Part shown: piece after piece, positions 18,039 through 29,231 of the stretch
How positions within the stretch are numbered: the first letter of the stretch is position 1
Layout: the number at the start of each line of letters is the position of its first letter
Assembly: GCA_937899415.1 (NCBI GenBank)
Contig: CALBPI010000073.1
Span: forward strand, 1-50,062
Direction of reading: 5' to 3'
Length of the DNA stretch: 50,062 bases
Origin: an uncultured Gammaproteobacteria bacterium
GTDB taxonomy: Bacteria > Pseudomonadota > Gammaproteobacteria > Steroidobacterales > Woeseiaceae
Translations under genes and position numbers: made by a program
Notes under the pieces: model-generated
Databases searched by the model: none
What the model was told of the DNA's origin: nothing
The model's input: only the letters and a program-made list of their open reading frames with translations

Positions 18039-18847
18039 GACTTGGGCTCCCTGAAAATGCCGGTCTGGTAGCTGGCCGCGAGTAGCAAGCCCGCCTCGCT
18101 GTACGCATAAGTCTCGGCGTTCAGAAACGAATGCCGAATGGCACGACAGTGGGTGTCAAGCAAGACGAATCCGTCGCCGACGGCAGCGAGTTCTTCATCA
18201 CTCGCGTAGATGTGCGTGGAGAGTGACACCGTAGACGCAAACAGACGTCCATCCCGCACAAAGAAGGTGCGCGGCATGGGGGTATCCACCATCGCTGCCA
18301 GGGCCTTGGCATCGAGTGGGCGTCGGTCCGACTCACGTACCCAGGTGGCGGAACGCGGTTTCGGGTTCCGGGTAAACGGACGCCCCTTGGCGAGGTAGAT
18401 TTCGTAGTGCCCAAACCACGACGGTGTCATCTCGTTGGCATCAAGGCGAAAGCTCTCGGCCTGCGGGCGCATGGGCTCGGGTTCGATATCGTAACGCGTC
18501 TCGGTCGGCGTGCGCTCCCCCGCGACAAGCGTGGCTGCCGCAAGCACCCGTGACCCGGATTGGGGCTCGCGCACTTCGACTTTCCAGAAGTCAATGGTGC
18601 GCCGGCGCTCCACAAGTCCCACCGACAGGCGCACCTTGTGGCCACGAACGGCGGTGTGAAACTGGACGTTCTGGTTCACGAGTGCACCCCGCTTCTCGCG
18701 GTGGCGCTCCCAGCCGCTGACAATCGCCGCTGCAATCCAGCCGCCGAATGCGTTGTCCATGTTCCAGAAGCGTTGGTCCAGCTCAACCTCGTAAAGGCCT
18801 TCGCTCAATTCCTGCGGGGCGGTCGACTCGTCGAGAACGAAACTCAT
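18035..18847 (-). CDS. TesB-like acyl-CoA thioesterase (double hotdog)
   Basis: 270 residues with two hotdog halves (about 1-120 and 150-270) typical of TesB-like or 4HBT_3 acyl-CoA thioesterases. The first half has WNMDNAFGGWIAAAIVSGWE and VNQNVQFHTAV. The second half has STHIYASDEELAAVG and ends with LLAASYQTGIFR, where the Gln is the conserved catalytic Gln position. Substrate unknown. It overlaps the lysC-lysA stop by ATGA and its own stop overlaps the dehalogenase start. No signal peptide. Confidence 0.75.
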   Translation of the reverse strand: MSFVLDESTAPQELSEGLYEVELDQRFWNMDNAFGGWIAAAIVSGWERHREKRGALVNQNVQFHTAVRGHKVRLSVGLVERRRTIDFWKVEVREPQSGSRVLAAATLVAGERTPTETRYDIEPEPMRPQAESFRLDANEMTPSWFGHYEIYLAKGRPFTRNPKPRSATWVRESDRRPLDAKALAAMVDTPMPRTFFVRDGRLFASTVSLSTHIYASDEELAAVGDGFVLLDTHCRAIRHSFLNAETYAYSEAGLLLAASYQTGIFREPKS

Positions 18848-21477
18848 GTCAGCAGCAACTCCGGTGCGGGATCGCGCAGGTTGTAATGCGAGGCCATGGC
18901 CGCAGCATAAGCGCCGGCATTGGCGATGAGCAGGACATCACCACCCTCGGATGGTGGCAGCAGGCGGTCACTGCCGAGCTTGTCACCCGTTTCACAAATG
19001 GGGCCGACTACGGTGACGAGTTCGGAGGCGGGTGTGTCGAGCCGCGTCAGATTCACGATCTCATGGTAGGCGCCATACAGCGCCGGGCGAATCAGCGAGT
19101 TCATTCCCGTCGCAACGCCCACGTAGCGGACATCGCCTTTGCCCTTGGTCTGCGTGACACGCGCGAGCAGCACGCCCGCTTCGGCGACCAGGAATCGGCC
19201 GGGCTCAAGCCAGAGCTCCACGCCCGGGCAGGCCTCCCGCACAGGCCCCAGTGACGCATCCAGGCGATCGAGATCGAGCGCGGGGTCGCCGCGCTTCTCA
19301 GCGATACCGAGGCCGCCGCCGAGATCGATGGCCCGCACATCGGGGAACAGCTTTGCCACAGTACTCAACGCTTCTCCCACGCTGCGCCAGGCGTCGCCGT
19401 CCGTAATGCCGCTGCCGACATGCGCGTGAACACCGGTGACGCGTGCGCCGGCGGCAACGATTAACTCGCTAAATTTCTCAAGTTCGAACAGCGGCACGCC
19501 AAACTTGGAGTGCACGCCTGCGGTGCGTACGTGTTCATGGTGGCCACGCCCCTGGCCGGGATCAACGCGCACAAAGACGTCGCGCCCCTCGAACAGCTCC
19601 GGCCAGGCCTGGAGCGGATAGAGGTTGTCGAGTGTCACCTGTGCGCCGGCGGCAAAGCCCGCGGCGTAGTCGCCACGCGGCGCAAAGTTGGGGGTGTAAA
19701 GCATGCGATCGCCGGGCAGCTCAGGGTAACGCTCGCGGACACGGGCCAGCTCGCCCGGTGACACGCACTCGAAACCCAGGCCCGCCTCGTAGACGAGATC
19801 GAGGATGCCCGGGTGCGGGTTCGCCTTCATGGCGTAGAACACGCGATCCACATGCGCAAGCGAAAGTAAGCGCGCCATCTGCGCGCGAATGGTCGCCGCA
19901 TCGTAGACGTAACAGGCGTCACGCGACTCGAGCGCTGCTATTAGCGCGTCACGTCGATCCTGCCACCAGGCCCGGGGCGCCGGCCCCTCGGCCACCGTCC
20001 CGCCCTGCAGTGACTCCCAGGTCTCACCAATTACGTCGTCACCGGGCACGGTACGAATGATCGAGGGATGCAACTTTTGCACGAGCCGGTAGCCCTGCTC
20101 ATTGTCGACGACGACGGTCAGGTTGAGGTCGTTGGCCGCCTGTGAGAGCAGGTGAATGCGTTGTTCTTCAAACAACTCCAGCGCGGGGCCCAGCTTGTGG
20201 AGGATCGTGCGAATCTTGCGACCCACAAGGCTGACGGCGGCGCAGTCCTCGATCACGGTCACCTCGCAGAGCGCAGACAGCGAATCAACGAGCGCGGAGA
20301 GCTCCTGTGACGTCAGCGGCACGTCATTGTCGTCAATGGAGACCGTCACGTTACTCTCCGAGGTCGACACGAGGTCAATCGATACGCGGTGTTCTGCAAA
20401 CACGGAAAACAAGCGCGCGAGAAAGCCCACCTCGTGCCACATCGTGACCGCCTCCATGGAGACCAGCGTGACGTGCTGACGCAATGAAATAGCTTTGACG
20501 AGCGGCTCAGGCTCACCCGTGACCCTGGCAATCAGCGTCCCCGGCAACTCCGGTCGCGAGGTGCAGCGAATGAAGAGCGGAATGTCGTGCGCGCGCAGTG
20601 GCCCGATGCAACGCGGGTGTAAAACAAGCCCGCCTGTCGATGCGATTTCCTGTGCTTCGCCGTAATGCAGACGCGTCAACAGGCGCGCCGAGGGCACGAC
20701 GCCCGGGTCTGCCGAGAACATCCCCGGCACGTCCGTCCAGACTTCGAGCCGCTGCGCACCCAGACGCGTCGCGAGATATGCGGCAGAGGTGTCGGAACCC
20801 CCTCTTCCCAGCAGCACCGTCTCGCCATCTGCGTTGCTGGCGATGAAGCCCTGCGTCACGTGGACACGCGCCTGGTCGAACTGCGCCGCAAACTCTGCGT
20901 CGGGCGCAACCTCGCAGGACGCGTTCAGAAACGCCCGCCGCTCGCGCGGTTCGTGATCGGCGTGTAACAGCTCGCGTGCATCGTGCCATTGCACGTCGAT
21001 GCCCTGTTGGCCAAGCCAGGCCACGGACAGCCGTGTGGCCATGAGCTCACCGAGTGCCATGGCGCGTGCCGTCACGCGCGGCGTGAGCTCGCGAACGAGC
21101 CGAACGCCGGCCAGCAATTGACGCAGGGTGCCGAGGTGCGCACCGACCAGTTCACTGGCATCGACGCCAAACTCCGCGGCGAGTGCATGGTGTGTCGTCT
21201 CGATGCCCGCGACGACATCGGCCTCTGCCGGGTCATTGCTCGCGGCTAGCGCCAGCGCCTCGTCGATGGCGTCGGACACGCCGCGCAGGGCCGAGTGCAC
21301 CACGAGTACACCCAGCCCGGCATCGCGGCGCCGGCGAATTCGTTGCTCGATATGGCGCCAGTTTTCGATCGATGCAACGCTCGAGCCGCCGAACTTGAGC
21401 ACCACCCAGGCGCTGTCGCGGATACCGCCGGGTTCGACCCGGGACAGGTCGAATTGCGCTTCGCCGTCGCTGCTCAC
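18844..21477 (-). CDS. lysC-lysA: Bifunctional aspartate kinase / diaminopimelate decarboxylase
   Basis: One 877-residue protein that joins the first and last steps of lysine synthesis. Residues about 24-475 are aspartate kinase: [12 protein letters not shown] (26-37), [31 protein letters not shown] (247-264), then ACT domains (about 334-475) with [20 protein letters not shown]. Residues about 505-877 are LysA: PLP Lys551 in [22 protein letters not shown] (720-725), [12 protein letters not shown] and CETGD (828-832). The start is GTG 21477, overlapping the ilvD stop (GTGA); the open frame upstream lies in ilvD. Such fusions are known from Xanthomonadales and relatives. It channels no intermediate directly, since the steps are not consecutive. 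Confidence 0.93.
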
Positions 21478-23153
21478 GCGAAGTCGTCGGTCACGGCGCC
21501 GCGCGACGCCGATGTCACTGTGCGTGCGTACTTGGCAAGCGCGCCACGCGTTGGCGGCGGCGGCGGCGTCCATCGGGCGTGCCGTGCCTCGAGCGTGTCG
21601 TCGTCAACCTGCAGCTCGATGGTGCGTGCCTGGGCATCGATACGGATCCGGTCGCCGTCCTCGATGAGCGCAATGGGACCGCCCGTGGCCGCCTCGGGCG
21701 TCACATGGCCTACCACGAAACCGTGGCTGCCGCCCGAGAACCGACCGTCGGTAATCAACGCGACCTGGTCACCGAGACCGCGACCCATAATGGCGCTCGT
21801 CGGGCTGAGCATTTCCCGCATGCCCGGGCCGCCGCGCGGTCCTTCGTAGCGTACGACCACGACATCGCCGGCCACGATCTCCCCATCCAGAATGGCCTGC
21901 AGGGCATCCTCTTCGGAGCCAAAGGTCCGCGCACGGCCTTCGAAGTGGAGCCCTTCCTTGCCACTGATCTTGGCCACAGCGCCCTCGGGCGCCAGGTTGC
22001 CGTAGAGCACGACCAGATGGCTCTCGGGTTTGATGGGTCGATCCATGGGTACCACGATGTCCTGCGCCTTCGGATAATCGGCCGTATCGGCGAGGTCTTC
22101 TGCCAGGCTGCGCGTGGTCACCGTGCGGCAGTCACCGTGCAGCAGGCCTTCGGCAAGCAGGGTCTTCATGAGTGGGCGGATGCCGCCGATGGCGATCAGC
22201 GCCGACATGGAGTAGCGGCCACTGGGTTTCAAATCGGCAAGCACGGGCACGCGCTTGCCGATACGGCTGAAGTCGTCGAGTGTGAGTGGCACACCGGCCG
22301 CGTGGGCGATGGCCAGAAGGTGCAGGACGGCATTGGTCGATCCGCCCAGTGCAATGACCACGGTGACCGCATTCTCAAATGCCTCGCGTGTGAGGATGTC
22401 TGAGGGCCGCACGCCGGCTTCAAGTAGCTTCACGACGGCACGACCCGCCCGCTCGCAATCGGACCGTTTGTCCTGCGACACCGCCTCCTGCGCGGAACTG
22501 CCCGGCAGACTGAGGCCCAGGGCCTCCATGGCGGACGCCATGGTGTTGGCCGTGTACATGCCGCCGCAGGAGCCCGGACCCGGGATCGAGGTGCCTTCCA
22601 CATCGAGCAGTGTCGCGTCATCGATGGCGCCTGCGGCGTGGGCGCCCACGGCTTCGAATACAGACACGATATCGCGGTCCTTGGTGCCCGGCTTGATGGT
22701 GCCACCGTAGACAAACACGGAAGGTCGATCGAGTCGGGCCATCGCGATCGCGCAGCCCGGCATGTTCTTGTCGCAACCACCAATGGTCACGAAGCCATCA
22801 AAGCCCTGCGCGGCCACCACCGCCTCGATCGAATCGGCGATGATCTCGCGTGACAGCAGTGAGTAGCGCATGCCGGGCGTCCCCATGGAGATGCCGTCGG
22901 ACACTGTAATGGTGTTGAACTGGACCGGTTTCGCGCCGGCCGCCTGGACGCCCGTCTCGACACGGTCGGCCAGGTCGTTAATGTGCATGTTGCAGGGCGT
23001 GACATTACTCCAGGTCGACGCCACGCCGATCTGCGGCAGCGCAAAGTCACCATTCTCGAAACCAACGGCGCGCAACATCGCACGGCTGGGCGCCTGCTCG
23101 GGCCCGTCCACGATGACGCTTGAGAATCGGCGTATGTCCTTTTCGTCAGCCAT
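21474..23153 (-). CDS. ilvD: Dihydroxy-acid dehydratase
   Basis: Third common enzyme of isoleucine and valine synthesis: dehydrates dihydroxy acids to the 2-keto acids. 559 residues, the short IlvD form. The Fe-S ligands appear as Cys54 (TPCNMHI), Cys127 ([11 protein letters not shown]) and Cys196 ([12 protein letters not shown]). The C-terminal motif [20 protein letters not shown] is intact. GGGAG lies before ATG 23153. It follows the kinase gene by 32 bases and overlaps lysC-lysA. It is far from ilvC (about 19 kb) and on the other strand, so the pathway is split between two operons. Confidence 0.96.
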
Positions 23154-23185: not shown

Positions 23186-25378
23186 TCAGCCTGCGTCGTC
23201 GCCGCCGTCAATAATGCGCACAGTCGTCGTGCGATAGACGCCCTCGGGCGCCGCCTCCCCGTCGAGGGTGAGGGTCAGCGTTTCCTCGGGTTCCGCGCTA
23301 TTGTCGAGGACCACGGGCAGGTAGACAACCGCGACAGATTCACCGGGCTCGAAGCGCACGGTCGAGTAAGGCGGCGCTACGAAATCTTCGTCGGGTCGCG
23401 CCTCGTTGGCGGTCAGCGCGAAGTCGACGTCGAGTGCCCCGGCTCGGGCGTTGAAGCGCCAGATCGTCAGCACCGCTGCCGCGCTGTCCTCGCGCACCTG
23501 ATAATCCGGCCGCGCGAAACCTACCGTATCGGGGACCAGGGTGGCCGCCACGCGCTGACGGTCATCATCGAGCAGTCGCAGGGCCACGCGCGCCAGCACC
23601 GCGCCATCGGTGCCCGTCATCGACAGTTGAACGATGGCGTCGGGCTCGACGTGAGGGTCGGGCAGGTGCTCAACGACGACATCGACCACACGCTGTCCGG
23701 CCGCAAAGCTTGGCCGTAGCGTCGAAATCCGGAAGCTCTCACGTGTGGCGACGCCCTCCGCCTCCGTTGCCGCATCGATGACCAGGCGCAACTGCTGTGG
23801 CGCACTGACGTCATCGCGTTGTAATCGAATGATGGAAGGACCCGCATCCTCAAACAGACGCAGCTCGGCATAGACCGCGGGCACCACAGCATCGGGCGAA
23901 GGCAACGCCAGCGTCAGCGCCGCCGGTTCGCTGTCGCCGGGAACCGGATCCGCGTTGGTGACCTCGAACGGCACCTCAGGCGGTGCGCGCTCGACGGCCG
24001 GCTGTTCGGGCTCGACGGTGACGGTGCGGACATCGGGTGCAGAGCGAAACTGAGGCGACAGGATCGCCAGGCCCGCCAGGCTGACAATCGCCAGGCCCGC
24101 CAGCCAGGGCGTCCAGTTGCCGCCGCCGCTCGGACTGCCCCCGGCAACGCCGAGTCCTTCGAGAAAGCCGGCCGCGCTTTGGGTGCGCGCATCGGTGCGC
24201 AGCTGCAGCGCCGACTCCAGCGCACGCCAGCGGCGCATGCCGATGCCATCGATCCGCTCGGGCGTCAGGCCCTCTCGCAAGGCGTCGAGCGCCGTCTTGT
24301 CACCGAAAACGCGTCGTCCCGACAGTAAACGGTAGGTCACGCACGCCAGCGAGAACACGTCATCGACGGGTCGCGCAGCCTTGCCCGACAGCACGGCCGG
24401 ACTTGCGTAGGCCGGCGTCGCGGCTTGCAGGAAACTATTGTCGAAGGCCATGGCCTTGCCCGCGAGATCACCGCGCGCACGCGCGATGCCGAAGTCGAGC
24501 AGCTTCACGCCGCCACCCGGCATGAGCATGACGTTGCCGGGCTTCACATCGGCGTGCGTGACGCCGACGCGGTGCGCGTGCACGAGCGCACTCCCCACGG
24601 CACCAATGATGTCCATTGCGGCGATGACGCTCATGGGCTCGCCCCGGCGCTCGTTGAGCAGCGTACTGAGCGCCCTGCCCTCGAGCCATTCCATCACCAG
24701 AAAAATGCGGCCGGCACAGCGGTCGAGATCGAGGAACCGCACGATGTTCGGGTGCGACAGGTAGCGCCCTTTGGCGGCTTCCTGTTGCAGCGCCCGCATG
24801 GCGCCACCATGACCCGCGTAGTCGGGTGCGAGGACCTTAATGGCCACATAGGGGCGCCCGCCCTCGGCTTCTGCAATACGGTGATCGATGGCCTTGTAGA
24901 CCACGCCCATGCTGCCGCCCGGCGCCCGGCTTACGATCTCAAAGCGGTCGCGCAACATCGTGCCGATATCGATGGGCGCGGCGACGGTCGCGATGGGCTC
25001 AACGGCATCGCTGCTATCCCGCGCTGGTCGCTCTTCGGTGTCTTCGCCGTACGCGGCAGCGGCGCTGAATGCGTCGGTGGCCTCTTCGATGAGACCAACC
25101 TCGGTGGGCGTCGTCGGCAACTCCTCGTTGGTCGCCTTGTCGATGTCGGAGCACAGGAGGCGGTGAATCTGCTCGGGCACGAGACCGCGGTTGGCATAGT
25201 CGTGAACGAGCCCGCGAACGCCGCTGGTCGCCTCGGGTTCCTCGTAGAGCAGGTTGATCATCTCGTCACGAAACTCGGCAACGCTGCGCTCGCCGCTGAC
25301 GAGCTGCTCCATGGCGAGCAGCAGTGACTGCGGTGCATCACCGATCGCGAGATCGTATTCGGTGCGTTTGTTGCTCAC
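23186..25378 (-). CDS. Membrane Ser/Thr protein kinase with two Calx-beta repeats
   Basis: 730 residues. Residues 1-135 are an N-terminal acidic, helical region without a name. A Hanks-type kinase spans about 145-410: Gly loop [13 protein letters not shown] (151-163), Lys181 in VAIKVL, Glu200, HADVKPGN (275-282; a non-RD kinase, Ala in place of Arg) and DFG (295-297); the APE motif is replaced by SPA. One membrane helix at about 424-441 follows. The periplasmic part (about 500-610 and 615-724) looks like two Calx-beta repeats, each ending in an LLDDD/IIDGGDD-type strand. GTG start overlapping the upstream stop (GTGA). The substrate is unknown; the operon suggests a link with amino-acid metabolism, which is inference. 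Confidence 0.85.
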
Positions 25379-26772
25379 AGCAGCTTGCCCGGGTTCATGA
25401 TGCCGTCGGGATCGAGACTCTCTTTGAGTCGGCGCATGAGCGCATGACTCACGGGACCGACCTGTGTCGCCAACAGATCCCGCTTCAAAAGTCCGATACC
25501 ATGTTCGGCGCTTATCGTACCGCCAAGCGACTGCGCCGCCTCGTGCACAGTTCGCGTTAATGCGGGCGCTCGGGCCAGGAAGGCTTCCCGGTCCAGGTCG
25601 AGCGGCTGGCTCAGGTTGAAATGCAGGTTGCCGTCACCGATGTGACCAAAGCACACCGGGCGCACGCCTGGCACGAGCGCCTCGACGCGCTCCGTCGCCG
25701 TCTTGATGAAGGCCTGCAATGCCCCCAGTGGCACCGCGATGTCGTGTTTGATGCTTGCGCCCTCGGGGCGTTGCGCGTCGCTGATGTTATGACGTACCGC
25801 CCACAGCGCCGCCTGATCGCGATCGCTGTCCGCCACAATCGCATCACGCAGCGCACCCGCGTCAACCGCGTCGGACACTGCAGCAAGCACAGCATCCCGG
25901 TCTATCTCGGCACGCCCGCCGTGCAGCTCGATGAGGGCATGTACGGGCGCGTCCGCCGGGCGACGCGCGCCCTCGATGTGCCGCACCACAAAGTCCACCG
26001 CGATATCGGGGACCAGTTCAAACGCAGCCATCGTGGCGCCAAATGCGCGCCGGAATCGCGTGTAGGCGTCAAGCACATGTGCGTGACTGTCGAGTGCCAG
26101 CCAAAGCACGAGTCGCGCCTCAGGCGCGGGCGCAAGTTTCAGTGTCGCGCCCGTGATGATGCCGAGCGTGCCTTCGCTGCCGACGAATAGCTGTTTCAGA
26201 TCGTAGCCGGCGTTGTTCTTGCGCAAGCTCTGCAACGCAGAAAGCAGCGTGCCATCGGACAGGACGACCTCGAGACCCAGCACCTGGTCACGTGCGTTGC
26301 CGTAGCGCAGCACACTGACACCGCCGGCATTGGTCGCCAGGTTGCCACCGATTTGGCAGCTGCCTTCTGAACTCAGGCTCAGGGGCAGCATAAGGTCTGC
26401 ATCGGCGGCTGCAGCCTGCGCCGCGGCCAGCGTGCAGCCGGCATCTACACACAAACTGAAATTGATGGCGTCGACTTCGCGCACGGCGTTGAGCCGATTG
26501 AGCGACACGACCACTTCGGCCTGACCCGATACGCTGCCGCCGACGAGCCCCGTGTTACCCCCCTGCGGGACGACGGGAACACCCAACTGGGCGCAACATC
26601 GGACAACCGCGGCAACGGCGTCGACGCTGCCCGGTTGCACGACGATCGGCGCTTCACCCGTATAGTTGCCGCGCCACTCCGCAAGAAATGGCGCGCGATC
26701 GGCTTCGGCGGTGAGCACGGCCTTATCGCCCGCCACGCCCCGCAAGGCCTTCGCGACGCGATCGACGTTCAT
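25375..26772 (-). CDS. FAD-linked 2-hydroxyacid dehydrogenase (GlcD/D2HGDH family)
   Basis: 465 residues with the PCMH-type FAD domain and the FAD-oxidase C domain. Seen: VVPQGGNTGLVGGSVSGQ (residues about 56-73), SEGSCQIGGNLATNAGGVSV, LFVGSEGTLGIITGATLKL, CFGHIGDGNLHFNLSQP with the metal-binding His, and ISAEHGIGLLKRDLL. Relatives oxidise D-lactate, glycolate or D-2-hydroxyglutarate and pass electrons to a quinone or flavoprotein. The pattern is nearest to D-2-hydroxyglutarate dehydrogenase, but I cannot separate the options. ATG 26772 overlaps the dehydratase stop (ATGA); an earlier start is possible but less likely. Confidence 0.85.
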   Translation of the reverse strand: MNVDRVAKALRGVAGDKAVLTAEADRAPFLAEWRGNYTGEAPIVVQPGSVDAVAAVVRCCAQLGVPVVPQGGNTGLVGGSVSGQAEVVVSLNRLNAVREVDAINFSLCVDAGCTLAAAQAAAADADLMLPLSLSSEGSCQIGGNLATNAGGVSVLRYGNARDQVLGLEVVLSDGTLLSALQSLRKNNAGYDLKQLFVGSEGTLGIITGATLKLAPAPEARLVLWLALDSHAHVLDAYTRFRRAFGATMAAFELVPDIAVDFVVRHIEGARRPADAPVHALIELHGGRAEIDRDAVLAAVSDAVDAGALRDAIVADSDRDQAALWAVRHNISDAQRPEGASIKHDIAVPLGALQAFIKTATERVEALVPGVRPVCFGHIGDGNLHFNLSQPLDLDREAFLARAPALTRTVHEAAQSLGGTISAEHGIGLLKRDLLATQVGPVSHALMRRLKESLDPDGIMNPGKLL

Positions 26773-27731
26773 CGCGCGACGAGCTCGGACCAGCGCGCGT
26801 GATCCATATTGCTGCCGCAGAAGATCAGCCCCACGCACTTACCCTTCAGCGTCTCGGCGAGCGGCCCCAGCAATGCGGCGAGTGCGGCTGCGCAGGCGGG
26901 CTCGACGGCGAGGGCCAGGTGCTCGTAGATGCTGAGCATGGCGGCAACCAGCGCGTCATCACTGACGCGAACCACGTCGTCGATGTGTTGACGGCACAGC
27001 GCGTAGGAGAGCGGCAGTGCCATGGGCGCCCCAAGGCTGTCCGCGATGGTATCGACGCGCTCGAGCGTGACCGGTGCTCCCGTGGCGAAACTGCGAGTCA
27101 TGCTGTCGGCGCCCATAGGCTCCACGCCGAACACCCGGCAGCCGGGTGTCGCGAGCTTAACGGCCGTCGCGACACCGGCAGCCAGCCCGCCACCGCCTAC
27201 AGGAACGATCACAGCGTCCAGCGCGGGGGCTGCGTCGATAAACTCTCTGCCAACACCGGCCGTCGCGATCGCTGTGGTCAGGCCTTCGAAGGGGTGGATC
27301 AGCGTCCGCCCCTCATCGCGGACGATCGCCTCCGCGGTGCTGAATGCCGTGTGCACGTCGTCGGCAAGAACCACTTCGGCACCCAGGGCCCGCACCCGCT
27401 CAACCCGGATGGGTGGGGCCGTTGCCGTCATGACCACACGCGCGGAGAGCCCCAGCGCACGGGCCGCCCAAGCAGTCGCAATCGCGTGGTTGCCGGCGCT
27501 GACGGCCGTGACGCCGGCTGCACGTTCTCGTTCATCGAGGTCGAGACAGTTGGCGAGCGCTCCGCGCGCCTTGAACGACCCTGTCACCTGCCAGAGCTCG
27601 CACTTGGCCCAGACTTCGGCGCCACTGAGCGCTGACAGCGCATCGAGTGGCACACTGGGTGTGCGCCGCAGGCGCGGTGCGAGGGTCGCTCGCAGGCGGT
27701 CGATGCTGTCTAGAGTGATTTCAGGTGTCAT
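26769..27731 (-). CDS. PLP-dependent Ser/Thr dehydratase, no ACT domain
   Basis: 320-residue fold-type II PLP enzyme. The PLP lysine is in QVTGSFKARGALAN (residues about 48-61), the substrate loop is SAGNHAIATAW, and the phosphate-binding Gly loop is VPVGGGGLAAGVA. It lacks the C-terminal ACT regulatory domain of biosynthetic threonine deaminase IlvA, so it resembles the catabolic or serine-racemase branch. With ilvD four genes downstream it might supply 2-oxobutanoate for isoleucine, but degradation of serine or threonine is equally possible. First gene of the seven-gene operon; a 231-base gap divides it from a divergent gene. Confidence 0.85.
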   Translation of the reverse strand: MTPEITLDSIDRLRATLAPRLRRTPSVPLDALSALSGAEVWAKCELWQVTGSFKARGALANCLDLDERERAAGVTAVSAGNHAIATAWAARALGLSARVVMTATAPPIRVERVRALGAEVVLADDVHTAFSTAEAIVRDEGRTLIHPFEGLTTAIATAGVGREFIDAAPALDAVIVPVGGGGLAAGVATAVKLATPGCRVFGVEPMGADSMTRSFATGAPVTLERVDTIADSLGAPMALPLSYALCRQHIDDVVRVSDDALVAAMLSIYEHLALAVEPACAAALAALLGPLAETLKGKCVGLIFCGSNMDHARWSELVAR

Positions 27732-27962: not shown

Positions 27963-29231
27963 ATGTCGATTGACCGACTGTCCGACTCCGGAATCATCAA
28001 GATTGCGGGAAGCTCACCGCACCTCGATGCGCTTGCGACACTTGCAAGTGACCTCAGCGTGCGTGAGCGCGGCAGTCTCGTCGAACTCGAACGCCGTCTC
28101 CACGATGCCTGGGCGCTGGGCGCCAACACGATTCTGAGCTGGAGCCACCACCCGCAGGGCATCTGCCTGCTGGTCGTGCCCCACTACGCGCTGGCCGAGT
28201 ACACGGCGACACCCGCGGGTGGCGACCGCCCCTGGCGTCCGTCGGAACGCTTTATCACGGAGCTCATTTCGGGTCCCGCGCACCTAACGGTGTCGCAGCT
28301 TTCAAAAGTCGCACGCCTGCTCGACGTCGAGCCGCGTGTCATCGCCCTGCGCGACCGCTTGCCCGACACCGAAATGGAAACCCGCCTCATCGAGGCCATG
28401 GTCAAGCGCTACGGCGTCAACTATGTTGAGCGCCGCGCTGTCGCGCTGTTCGACATCGTCGGCTTCAGCCTGCTGAGCCCGTTCGAACAGATGACGCAGC
28501 TCAACAGCCTCTCGCACTCGCTGAACGCGGCACACAGCAAGCTGCTCGATCGGGAAATTGGCGTGAGTTTTGCCCGCTCCTCGAGCGGCGACGGGTTCTA
28601 CATCTGGAATCGCGACCGCGGCGAGTCGCCCAACGTCAACCTCTACCACTTCATGCAGCTTGTGCTGGCCGACAACGCGATTGCCCGGAGCAAGGCGGTC
28701 GCCCGATCTGTACCGCTGCTACGCACAGCGTTCCACATCGGCAGCTGCTACGAGTTCCACCAGTCCGATGGACTCAACCCGACGACCCATGACTACATCG
28801 TCGGAGATGTCACGGTAGAGCTCGCACGCATGATTGAACGCACGGTGCCCGGCCAGATCGTCGTGGGCGCGTTTGAAACCTGCGACACAGCACCCGAGAA
28901 CGCAGCCGACTGTGAAGCGATCCGATTCGTTGAGCACACGCGCCGAAATCTGACGCGCCTCGAGGGCATGGAGCTATCGGGCGAGCGCGTCACCTCGATC
29001 AAGTGCTACCTGACGGGTGAACGCTGTGCCGATGGCCGGTTCTCGATTCGCAAGCTGCTCATCAACGACAAGCATGGCCTGTCGCGGTTCGTGTACAACG
29101 CCAAGGTCAACATCCACCGCCACCAGGCCGAGCCCATCCTGCTGGGTATTGAAGACCGCATCCTGCGCGAAGATGATTTCTCGGCACAGACGGCCGAGAT
29201 GATCTACATCCCCAACGAACAACACGTATAA
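27963..29231 (+). CDS. Divergent class III nucleotide-cyclase-like protein
   Basis: 422 residues; no exact family is recognised. The middle (about 157-305) follows the class III cyclase pattern: [13 protein letters not shown] with metal-binding Asp164, [11 protein letters not shown] with the second Asp210, [13 protein letters not shown], then [14 protein letters not shown] and GQIVVGAF. The usual adenine-selecting Lys (four residues before Asp210) is Ser206, and the transition-state Asn position appears to be Val285, while Arg289 is kept. The N-terminal 140 and C-terminal 100 residues are unassigned; no membrane helix or signal peptide is seen. A monocistronic gene with GAGG before ATG 27963. 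It may be a cyclase with unusual specificity or a nucleotide-binding pseudo-cyclase. Confidence 0.65.

Follow-up and report, generated by a model that had tools for sequence, protein, structure and literature searches.

A Woeseiaceae Ser/Thr kinase with a predicted periplasmic Calx-beta tandem, encoded among genes for amino-acid enzymes

The window, by which we mean the whole stretch of 50,062 nucleotides that was analysed, comes from a Woeseiaceae genome of 3.94 Mb in 102 contigs and carries a gene for a large Ser/Thr kinase packed on one strand among genes for amino-acid and hydroxy-acid enzymes (Table 1). A 4-base overlap joins the GTG start of the kinase gene to the TGA of the upstream FAD gene. 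Downstream there is a gap of 32 bases between the kinase stop codon and ilvD, which is followed by the gene for a LysC-LysA fusion. This start/stop coupling, the short spacing to ilvD and the fusion had all been proposed in an earlier sequence-only reading of the locus, and the measured distances and profile scores agree with it. The same reading took the upstream product to be a FAD oxidase. The gene is indeed FAD linked, but its nearest solved structures are the putative oxidoreductase 3pm9 (E 5.2e-125) and the mitochondrial D-2-hydroxyglutarate dehydrogenase 6lpn (E 1.7e-91), and 0 of the 10 listed NCBIfam models reach their cut-off. For the PLP enzyme encoded next to it, the nearest solved structures are serine racemase and threonine dehydratases, and no listed NCBIfam model reaches its cut-off.

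Table 1. Positions in the window of the kinase gene, the parts of its product and the neighbouring genes
Feature	Position	Strand	Basis
Ser/Thr kinase gene	23186..25378	(-)	730 aa, GTG start; ORF, translation, Pfam Pkinase, orthologs
N-terminal helical region, residues ~15-88	25115..25336	(-)	Full model and conservation among relatives
Kinase domain, predicted cytoplasmic, residues ~139-405	24164..24964	(-)	K181, E200, H275-A-D277, N282, D295-F-G; nearest solved PknA/PknB
Single predicted membrane helix, residues ~426-444	24047..24103	(-)	Hydropathy
Calx-beta repeat 1, residues ~487-607	23558..23920	(-)	E510, D574, E578, D604-D605-D606; family profile, repeat-repeat match, fold model
Calx-beta repeat 2, residues ~616-728	23195..23533	(-)	E630, D665, D692, E696, E699, D724, D727, D728; Pfam PF03160
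FAD-linked dehydrogenase, D-2-hydroxyglutarate dehydrogenase type	25375..26838	(-)	Pfam; nearest solved 3pm9, 6lpn
PLP-dependent threonine/serine dehydratase or racemase family	26769..27731	(-)	Pfam, NCBIfam, PDB comparison
ilvD, dihydroxy-acid dehydratase	21474..23153	(-)	TIGR00110 743.2 bits, cut-off 618.15
LysC-LysA fusion (aspartate kinase / diaminopimelate decarboxylase)	18844..21573	(-)	NF006515 1158 bits, cut-off 802
Conserved 422-aa gene, divergently transcribed	27963..29231	(+)	No Pfam/NCBIfam match

The catalytic domain is recognised as that of a protein kinase by profile and by its key residues. Pkinase (PF00069), whose cut-off is 31.7 bits, scores 104.2 bits on the window protein and is matched at E 0.01 or better in 32 of 32 proteins (the window's and those of 31 relatives). 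In the alignment of the same size, again the window and 31 relatives, with L099 omitted because its contig ends inside the gene, K181, E200, H275, D277, N282 and D295-F296-G297 are invariant; the Lys181, Asp277 and DFG motif on which the kinase had been recognised beforehand are among them. Two other motifs deviate from the usual form. Among 33 proteins compared, HRD is replaced by HAD, or by HGD in L092, L099 and L101. At the place of APE the sequence is YSSMQ, with YASPA in the window and YASMQ in L101, so that the HRD arginine and the APE glutamate are absent from the whole set and the kinase is of the non-RD type. Non-RD kinases can be active. The glycine loop is present in the window and lost in the relative L101. 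The closest solved kinase domains are those of PknA and PknB; in our full-length AlphaFold2 model, the kinase part was poor.

In that model the kinase domain is preceded by helices with a pLDDT of about 76 to 80 across residues 21-80, in a region that is conserved among the relatives and in which the window protein averages only 16% identity to them. Hydropathy gives one hydrophobic segment after the kinase domain, in keeping with the single membrane helix claimed earlier, and a segment above threshold occurs there in 30 of the 33 aligned proteins (L041, L042 and L089 fall below it); a second hydropathy peak of the window protein, at residue 248, lies within the kinase fold. The C-terminal tail is predicted to lie outside the inner membrane, in the periplasm.

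This tail contains two Calx-beta repeats, the number that the sequence-only reading had put forward, and the two are recognised by different routes. In the window protein, Pfam matches PF03160 to repeat 2 only (residues 617-724, 34.3 bits against a cut-off of 27) and gives no match for repeat 1; a Calx-beta match at E 0.01 or better is found in 32/32 proteins (the window and 31 relatives). Repeat 1 (487-607) scores 85.7 bits against a family profile, which includes the window itself, and aligns to repeat 2 in hhalign with a probability of 97.1 and an E of 5.7e-11. A profile of the tandem was built from 31 rows, L080 being excluded because its alignment ends early, and with a limit of E 0.01 it matched 16 PDB sequences. 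These were without exception Na/Ca exchangers or integrin beta-4, with the CBD12 of CALX as the best (E 7.4e-15). Every matched stretch among the best matches listed falls within repeat 2, which aligns to both exchanger domains of 3rb7, 3rb5 and 3us9, to the second one weakly (E 0.02-0.03); repeat 1, unlike repeat 2, was not matched by sequence to any PDB entry in this search. The structure prediction that had been suggested for the tail points the same way. An AlphaFold2 model of residues 478-730 (mean pLDDT 81.3, pTM 0.53) retrieves Na+/Ca2+ exchangers and their CBD1-CBD2 first in the PDB, led by NCX1 (8sgt, E 1.5e-12) and the crystal structure of NCX1 CBD12 (3us9, 6.1e-12) and followed by 8sgj and CALX CBD12 (3rb7, 5.1e-11), and CBD12 entries rank first among small proteins in a search that returned 332 chains of beta-sandwich and other kinds at E 0.001. 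Foldseek superposes single Calx-beta domains well (3gin_A, rmsd 1.9) and the whole tandem poorly (TM 0.40, rmsd 13.8); because of this, and with a pTM of 0.53, the angle between the repeats in the model is not reliable. The idea that repeat 1 is a linker artefact was rejected on the strength of the fold model, the family profile and its likeness to repeat 2.

The Ca2+ ligands of NCX1 CBD1 include E385, D421, D446, D447, E451, D498, D499 and D500, with E454 at site Ca1 (PMC3386913). Placing the NCX1 numbers of this list on our alignment columns was itself a matter of inference, and the residues given for each repeat in Table 1 are the counterparts so obtained. The window tandem (486-730) contains 41 acidic residues, 14 of which are acidic in 31/31 rows, the window being one row; 13 of these 14 coincide with NCX1 Ca2+-ligand positions in the list, and the remaining one is D580. 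The sole listed ligand position that is not invariantly acidic is D574 (D in 27 and N in 4 of the 31 rows). As for the other 27 acidic residues, the best is acidic in 87% of the rows and 21 stay below 35%, so that acid conservation is concentrated at the ligand positions, which is the pattern expected of conserved Ca2+ sites. With respect to the same list, repeat 1 keeps most of the Ca3-Ca4 ligand positions and repeat 2 those of several sites; repeat 1 is without an acid at the counterparts of D421 and E454 throughout the 31 rows, and at the counterpart of D446 repeat 1 has an acid in a single row of the 31 and repeat 2 in no row. The last DDD motif of repeat 2 is split by two glycines in the window alone. 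Both the tandem and the acids D604-D606 of a CBD12-type junction site are found, with the reservation about the domain angle made above. On this pattern of residues, we regard it as very probable that the Calx-beta tandem is a module that binds Ca2+.

The protein belongs to the broad kind of transmembrane Ser/Thr kinases with an outward sensor. To our knowledge, few bacterial Ser/Thr kinases have outward sensor domains with a known ligand. It resembles the PASTA kinases PknA, PknB and StkP in having a Hanks-type kinase domain on the predicted cytoplasmic side, a single membrane helix and outward C-terminal domains, but it is unlike them in its Calx-beta tandem, its non-RD motif and its N-terminal helical region, and a classification as a PASTA kinase was rejected since NF033483 reaches 159.7 bits against a cut-off of 450, over the kinase part only (residues 138-363). 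The likeness to the CBD1-CBD2 (CBD12) of NCX1 and CALX lies in the arrangement of two Calx-beta domains in tandem; the exchanger module is intracellular and controls a transporter, whereas the one described here is predicted to be periplasmic and is fused to a kinase. Closer to the window protein are kinases of the sister family f15 and Woeseiaceae paralogs, in which a related kinase domain is likewise followed by an outward tail. There the C-terminus is a TonB_C domain (PF03544), found in all eight f15 proteins scanned (L140, L141, L143, L144, L145, L146, L148 and L100) and in 5 of 10 further proteins (L202, L045, L046, L048 and L106), and no other window gene occurs in the 13 f15 loci read. 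The kinase of G058 (L103) does have a Calx-beta tail, but with one domain, and it stands outside the clade described below, with no other window gene in its locus. Such different tails, Calx-beta or TonB_C, on related kinases show how receptors of this sort may arise. In the open-licence literature, judged by titles and the starts of abstracts, we found no description of an exchanger-type tandem on a bacterial kinase, and by the same criterion the papers retrieved on Woeseia or Woeseiaceae kinases, on Hanks-type sensor domains and on TonB with kinases do not describe such a protein.

The Woeseiaceae are a mostly uncultured sediment family, and the relatives of the window belong to it. The layout of the locus is common to L038-L044 and, as far as the contig extends, to L047, all from metagenome-assembled genomes, seven of the eight assigned to the Woeseiaceae and L041 only to the Gammaproteobacteria. 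The full kinase profile was matched at E 1e-60 or better in 88 of 107 family genomes and in 40 of the 45 that are at least 90% complete and at most 5% contaminated. The match extends to the end of repeat 2 in 81 of the 107; three family genomes have only the kinase part of an apparent operon-type copy and four have only a paralog, judged by score. Among 246 genomes of the order, non-family matches at E 1e-75 or better stop by position 581 of the 794 in the profile, before the greater part of the tandem. A search of 369 genomes of the class with the tandem profile found 26 places in 21 genomes; there, the only end-to-end match of the full-length profile was G009, of the same family, the window being matched in the kinase part. 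Within the window genome, Calx-beta was matched at only two places, one of which is this gene. That paralogs in the same genome share the layout was rejected, as the 15 other kinase-matching places (of 16) are only 28-35% identical, and no PP2C phosphatase adjoins the kinase gene, the three Pfam PF13672 matches in the genome all lying on other contigs.

A conserved neighbourhood had been set beforehand as a point on which the proposal could fail, and the gene order proved to be conserved. In a first search, 25 family genomes besides the window's had a match; taking the best in each (L075-L097, L099 and L101), the FAD gene lies directly upstream of the kinase gene in 25/25, and ilvD directly downstream in 22 of the 23 with DNA there, L080 and L099 ending at the kinase; with L038-L044 added, the latter count becomes 29/30. 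The exception is L101, where the kinase gene stands beside the FAD gene without ilvD. Additional kinase places in these genomes (L098 and L104-L106), like L045, L046, L048 and L049, are paralogs without the operon neighbours. The order is kept across considerable divergence, with a mean identity of 58-81% among relatives for four neighbouring operon proteins and no pair above 90% identity among the 33 aligned kinases. In a tree of 51 kinase domains, which included 25 of the 33 operon kinases, these 25 fall together with the second copy L098 in one clade (100/99), and the window kinase is the deepest within it.

The same gap between the FAD gene and ilvD was then read in 24 genomes chosen for lacking this kinase or lying outside the family, and in 10 of them the two genes are paired with nothing between. 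Three belong to the sister family f15 (G050, G185 and G170) and seven to the same family (G004, G014, G030, G078, G100, G103 and G122), including genomes as large as 4.1 Mb (G100) and 3.0 Mb (G030). The gap is filled in G037 by a fatty-acid desaturase gene (L203:9426-10277) and in G200, of a sister family, by a gene for a 385-aa kinase in which no outward domain is recognised (L201:9916-11073), and which sits on a long branch with an unsure position in the tree; in the remaining 12 the two genes were not observed side by side or the pair is incomplete in the available DNA. The simplest history is that kinases and once a desaturase were inserted into an older operon, with later losses, and in view of the kinase found there in G200, one may have stood in the gap before the two families parted. 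Given the empty sites and the other inserts, we rejected the argument that adjacency proves function. Other genes of the region are kept together as well, so the retained order is weak evidence and is not peculiar to the kinase. Within a single family, genes can keep their order as the result of an insertion into an operon that was already there.

Taken together, we consider it reasonably probable that the gene encodes a Woeseiaceae sensor Ser/Thr kinase in which a periplasmic Ca2+-binding tandem switches the enzyme across the membrane, and that the gene was inserted into its operon. The N-terminal helices and the non-RD kinase domain would lie in the cytoplasm, joined by one membrane helix and a variable linker to the Calx-beta tandem in the periplasm. 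Ca2+ would be bound by the two Calx-beta domains at the ends of their loops and where repeat 1 meets repeat 2, as in the exchanger CBD1-CBD2, and would stiffen the tandem, which could then bind an envelope ligand or pair with that of a second copy. Pairing or release might switch the kinase across the membrane and lead to the phosphorylation of cytoplasmic proteins. Most likely the gene entered an older D2HGDH-like/ilvD/lysC-lysA operon in the family ancestor and was kept there, and a kinase gene kept in the operon is probably made together with the operon enzymes. That the kinase reads outside Ca2+ is doubtful. Seawater contains about 10 mM Ca2+; if the hosts of this kinase are marine, as is the case for Woeseiaceae, the sites would be occupied at such a level, and the role of Ca2+ may be that of a structural cofactor and not of the signal. 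A conserved tandem of Ca2+-ligand positions on a membrane kinase offers a concrete and testable candidate for a receptor.

What the kinase acts on is a separate matter, and here we give an even chance to the view that it is a passenger at a permissive site, placed there by insertion and simple descent and acting on unrelated envelope or growth processes. The single clade with the window at its base, the empty sites and the other inserts in the same gap are what this would predict, seven family genomes without the kinase keep the FAD gene-ilvD pair, and of the 19 family genomes in which no match was found, 13 have a listed size of no more than 2.0 Mb (sizes are rounded and several genomes are incomplete). 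The slot has, however, been retained through the family for longer than expected without a benefit, which may be one of expression level only, and the G200 kinase in the gap means that a kinase may predate the parting of the two families.

A second alternative concerns the tail, which might be an adhesion or spacer module with Ca2+ in a structural role only, the signal being contact or envelope strain. We lean slightly against it. Among 20 Calx-beta places of the class that were read, with flanks of 1.5 kb in which a distant kinase domain could escape notice, a kinase lies on the same frame in three (the window, G009 and G058) and none was seen around the other 17; the high Ca2+ of seawater and the TonB_C tail that stands in the same place in related kinases also fit a spacer. 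Against this, there are only two repeats and the junction acids D604-D606 are invariant, which is closer to the regulatory CBD12 than to the long arrays of adhesins.

It is unlikely that the kinase controls the enzymes made with it, an outside signal altering the phosphorylation of IlvD, LysC-LysA, the D2HGDH-like enzyme or the PLP dehydratase. This was the function proposed by the sequence-only reading, and the same-strand packing with its 4-base overlap and 32-base gap, the constancy of both neighbours and an order kept across the divergence of the neighbouring proteins speak for it. Comparison with other genomes does not support it, since the FAD gene-ilvD pair exists without the kinase in 10/24 genomes, G100 and G030 included, the gap can hold a desaturase or a short kinase with no outward domain, L101 has the kinase and the FAD gene without ilvD, and other genes of the region are also kept together; a literature search on the phosphorylation of bacterial IlvD and Ser/Thr kinases gave nothing relevant by title or abstract start. 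Still less credible, and decidedly improbable, is the wider proposal of a CBD12-tandem receptor kinase that responds to Ca2+, or to a ligand dependent on it, by phosphorylating the operon's branched-chain, lysine and 2-hydroxyacid enzymes, and that belongs to a set of receptors with exchangeable tails (tandem Calx-beta, single Calx-beta and TonB_C) on one kinase chassis.

The window kinase is the most divergent of 29 compared, with a mean identity of 34.8% against 51.0% among the others, and its ratio of window identity to that of the others, 0.68, is the lowest of eight genes compared. In each of the seven other genes, too, the window genome diverges most, so a deep lineage accounts for part of this divergence. 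A pseudokinase or a decaying gene in the window genome, to which this divergence, the HAD and YASPA motifs and the broken last DDD might point, is very improbable, given that the main catalytic residues are kept along with most of the ligand acids, that the frame is uninterrupted through 730 codons and that HAD or HGD is the rule among the 33 proteins.

Some minor observations concern single genomes and neighbouring genes. G007 has a second, short operon-type kinase copy (L098, on G007:C40) of 452 aa and without Calx-beta, and a separate stretch matching the kinase tail lies at G007:C58:274-1401. The divergently transcribed 422-aa gene adjoins the operon in 32 of the 32 kinase loci with DNA there and is also present at the kinase-less sites of G050, G170, G185, G100 and G037, being absent at that of G004. 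Its product has no Pfam, NCBIfam or significant PDB match; two of its stretches, FDIVGF and [10 protein letters not shown], resemble by eye a motif of class III nucleotide cyclases, a likeness that no profile supports. In L076, L078, L081, L082, L084, L085 and L090, the best match beside ilvD spans no more than about 375 residues of the LysC-LysA fusion, and in L162 and L165 the match there is the LysA half, so the fusion seems to have been split or partly lost in one branch of the Woeseiaceae.
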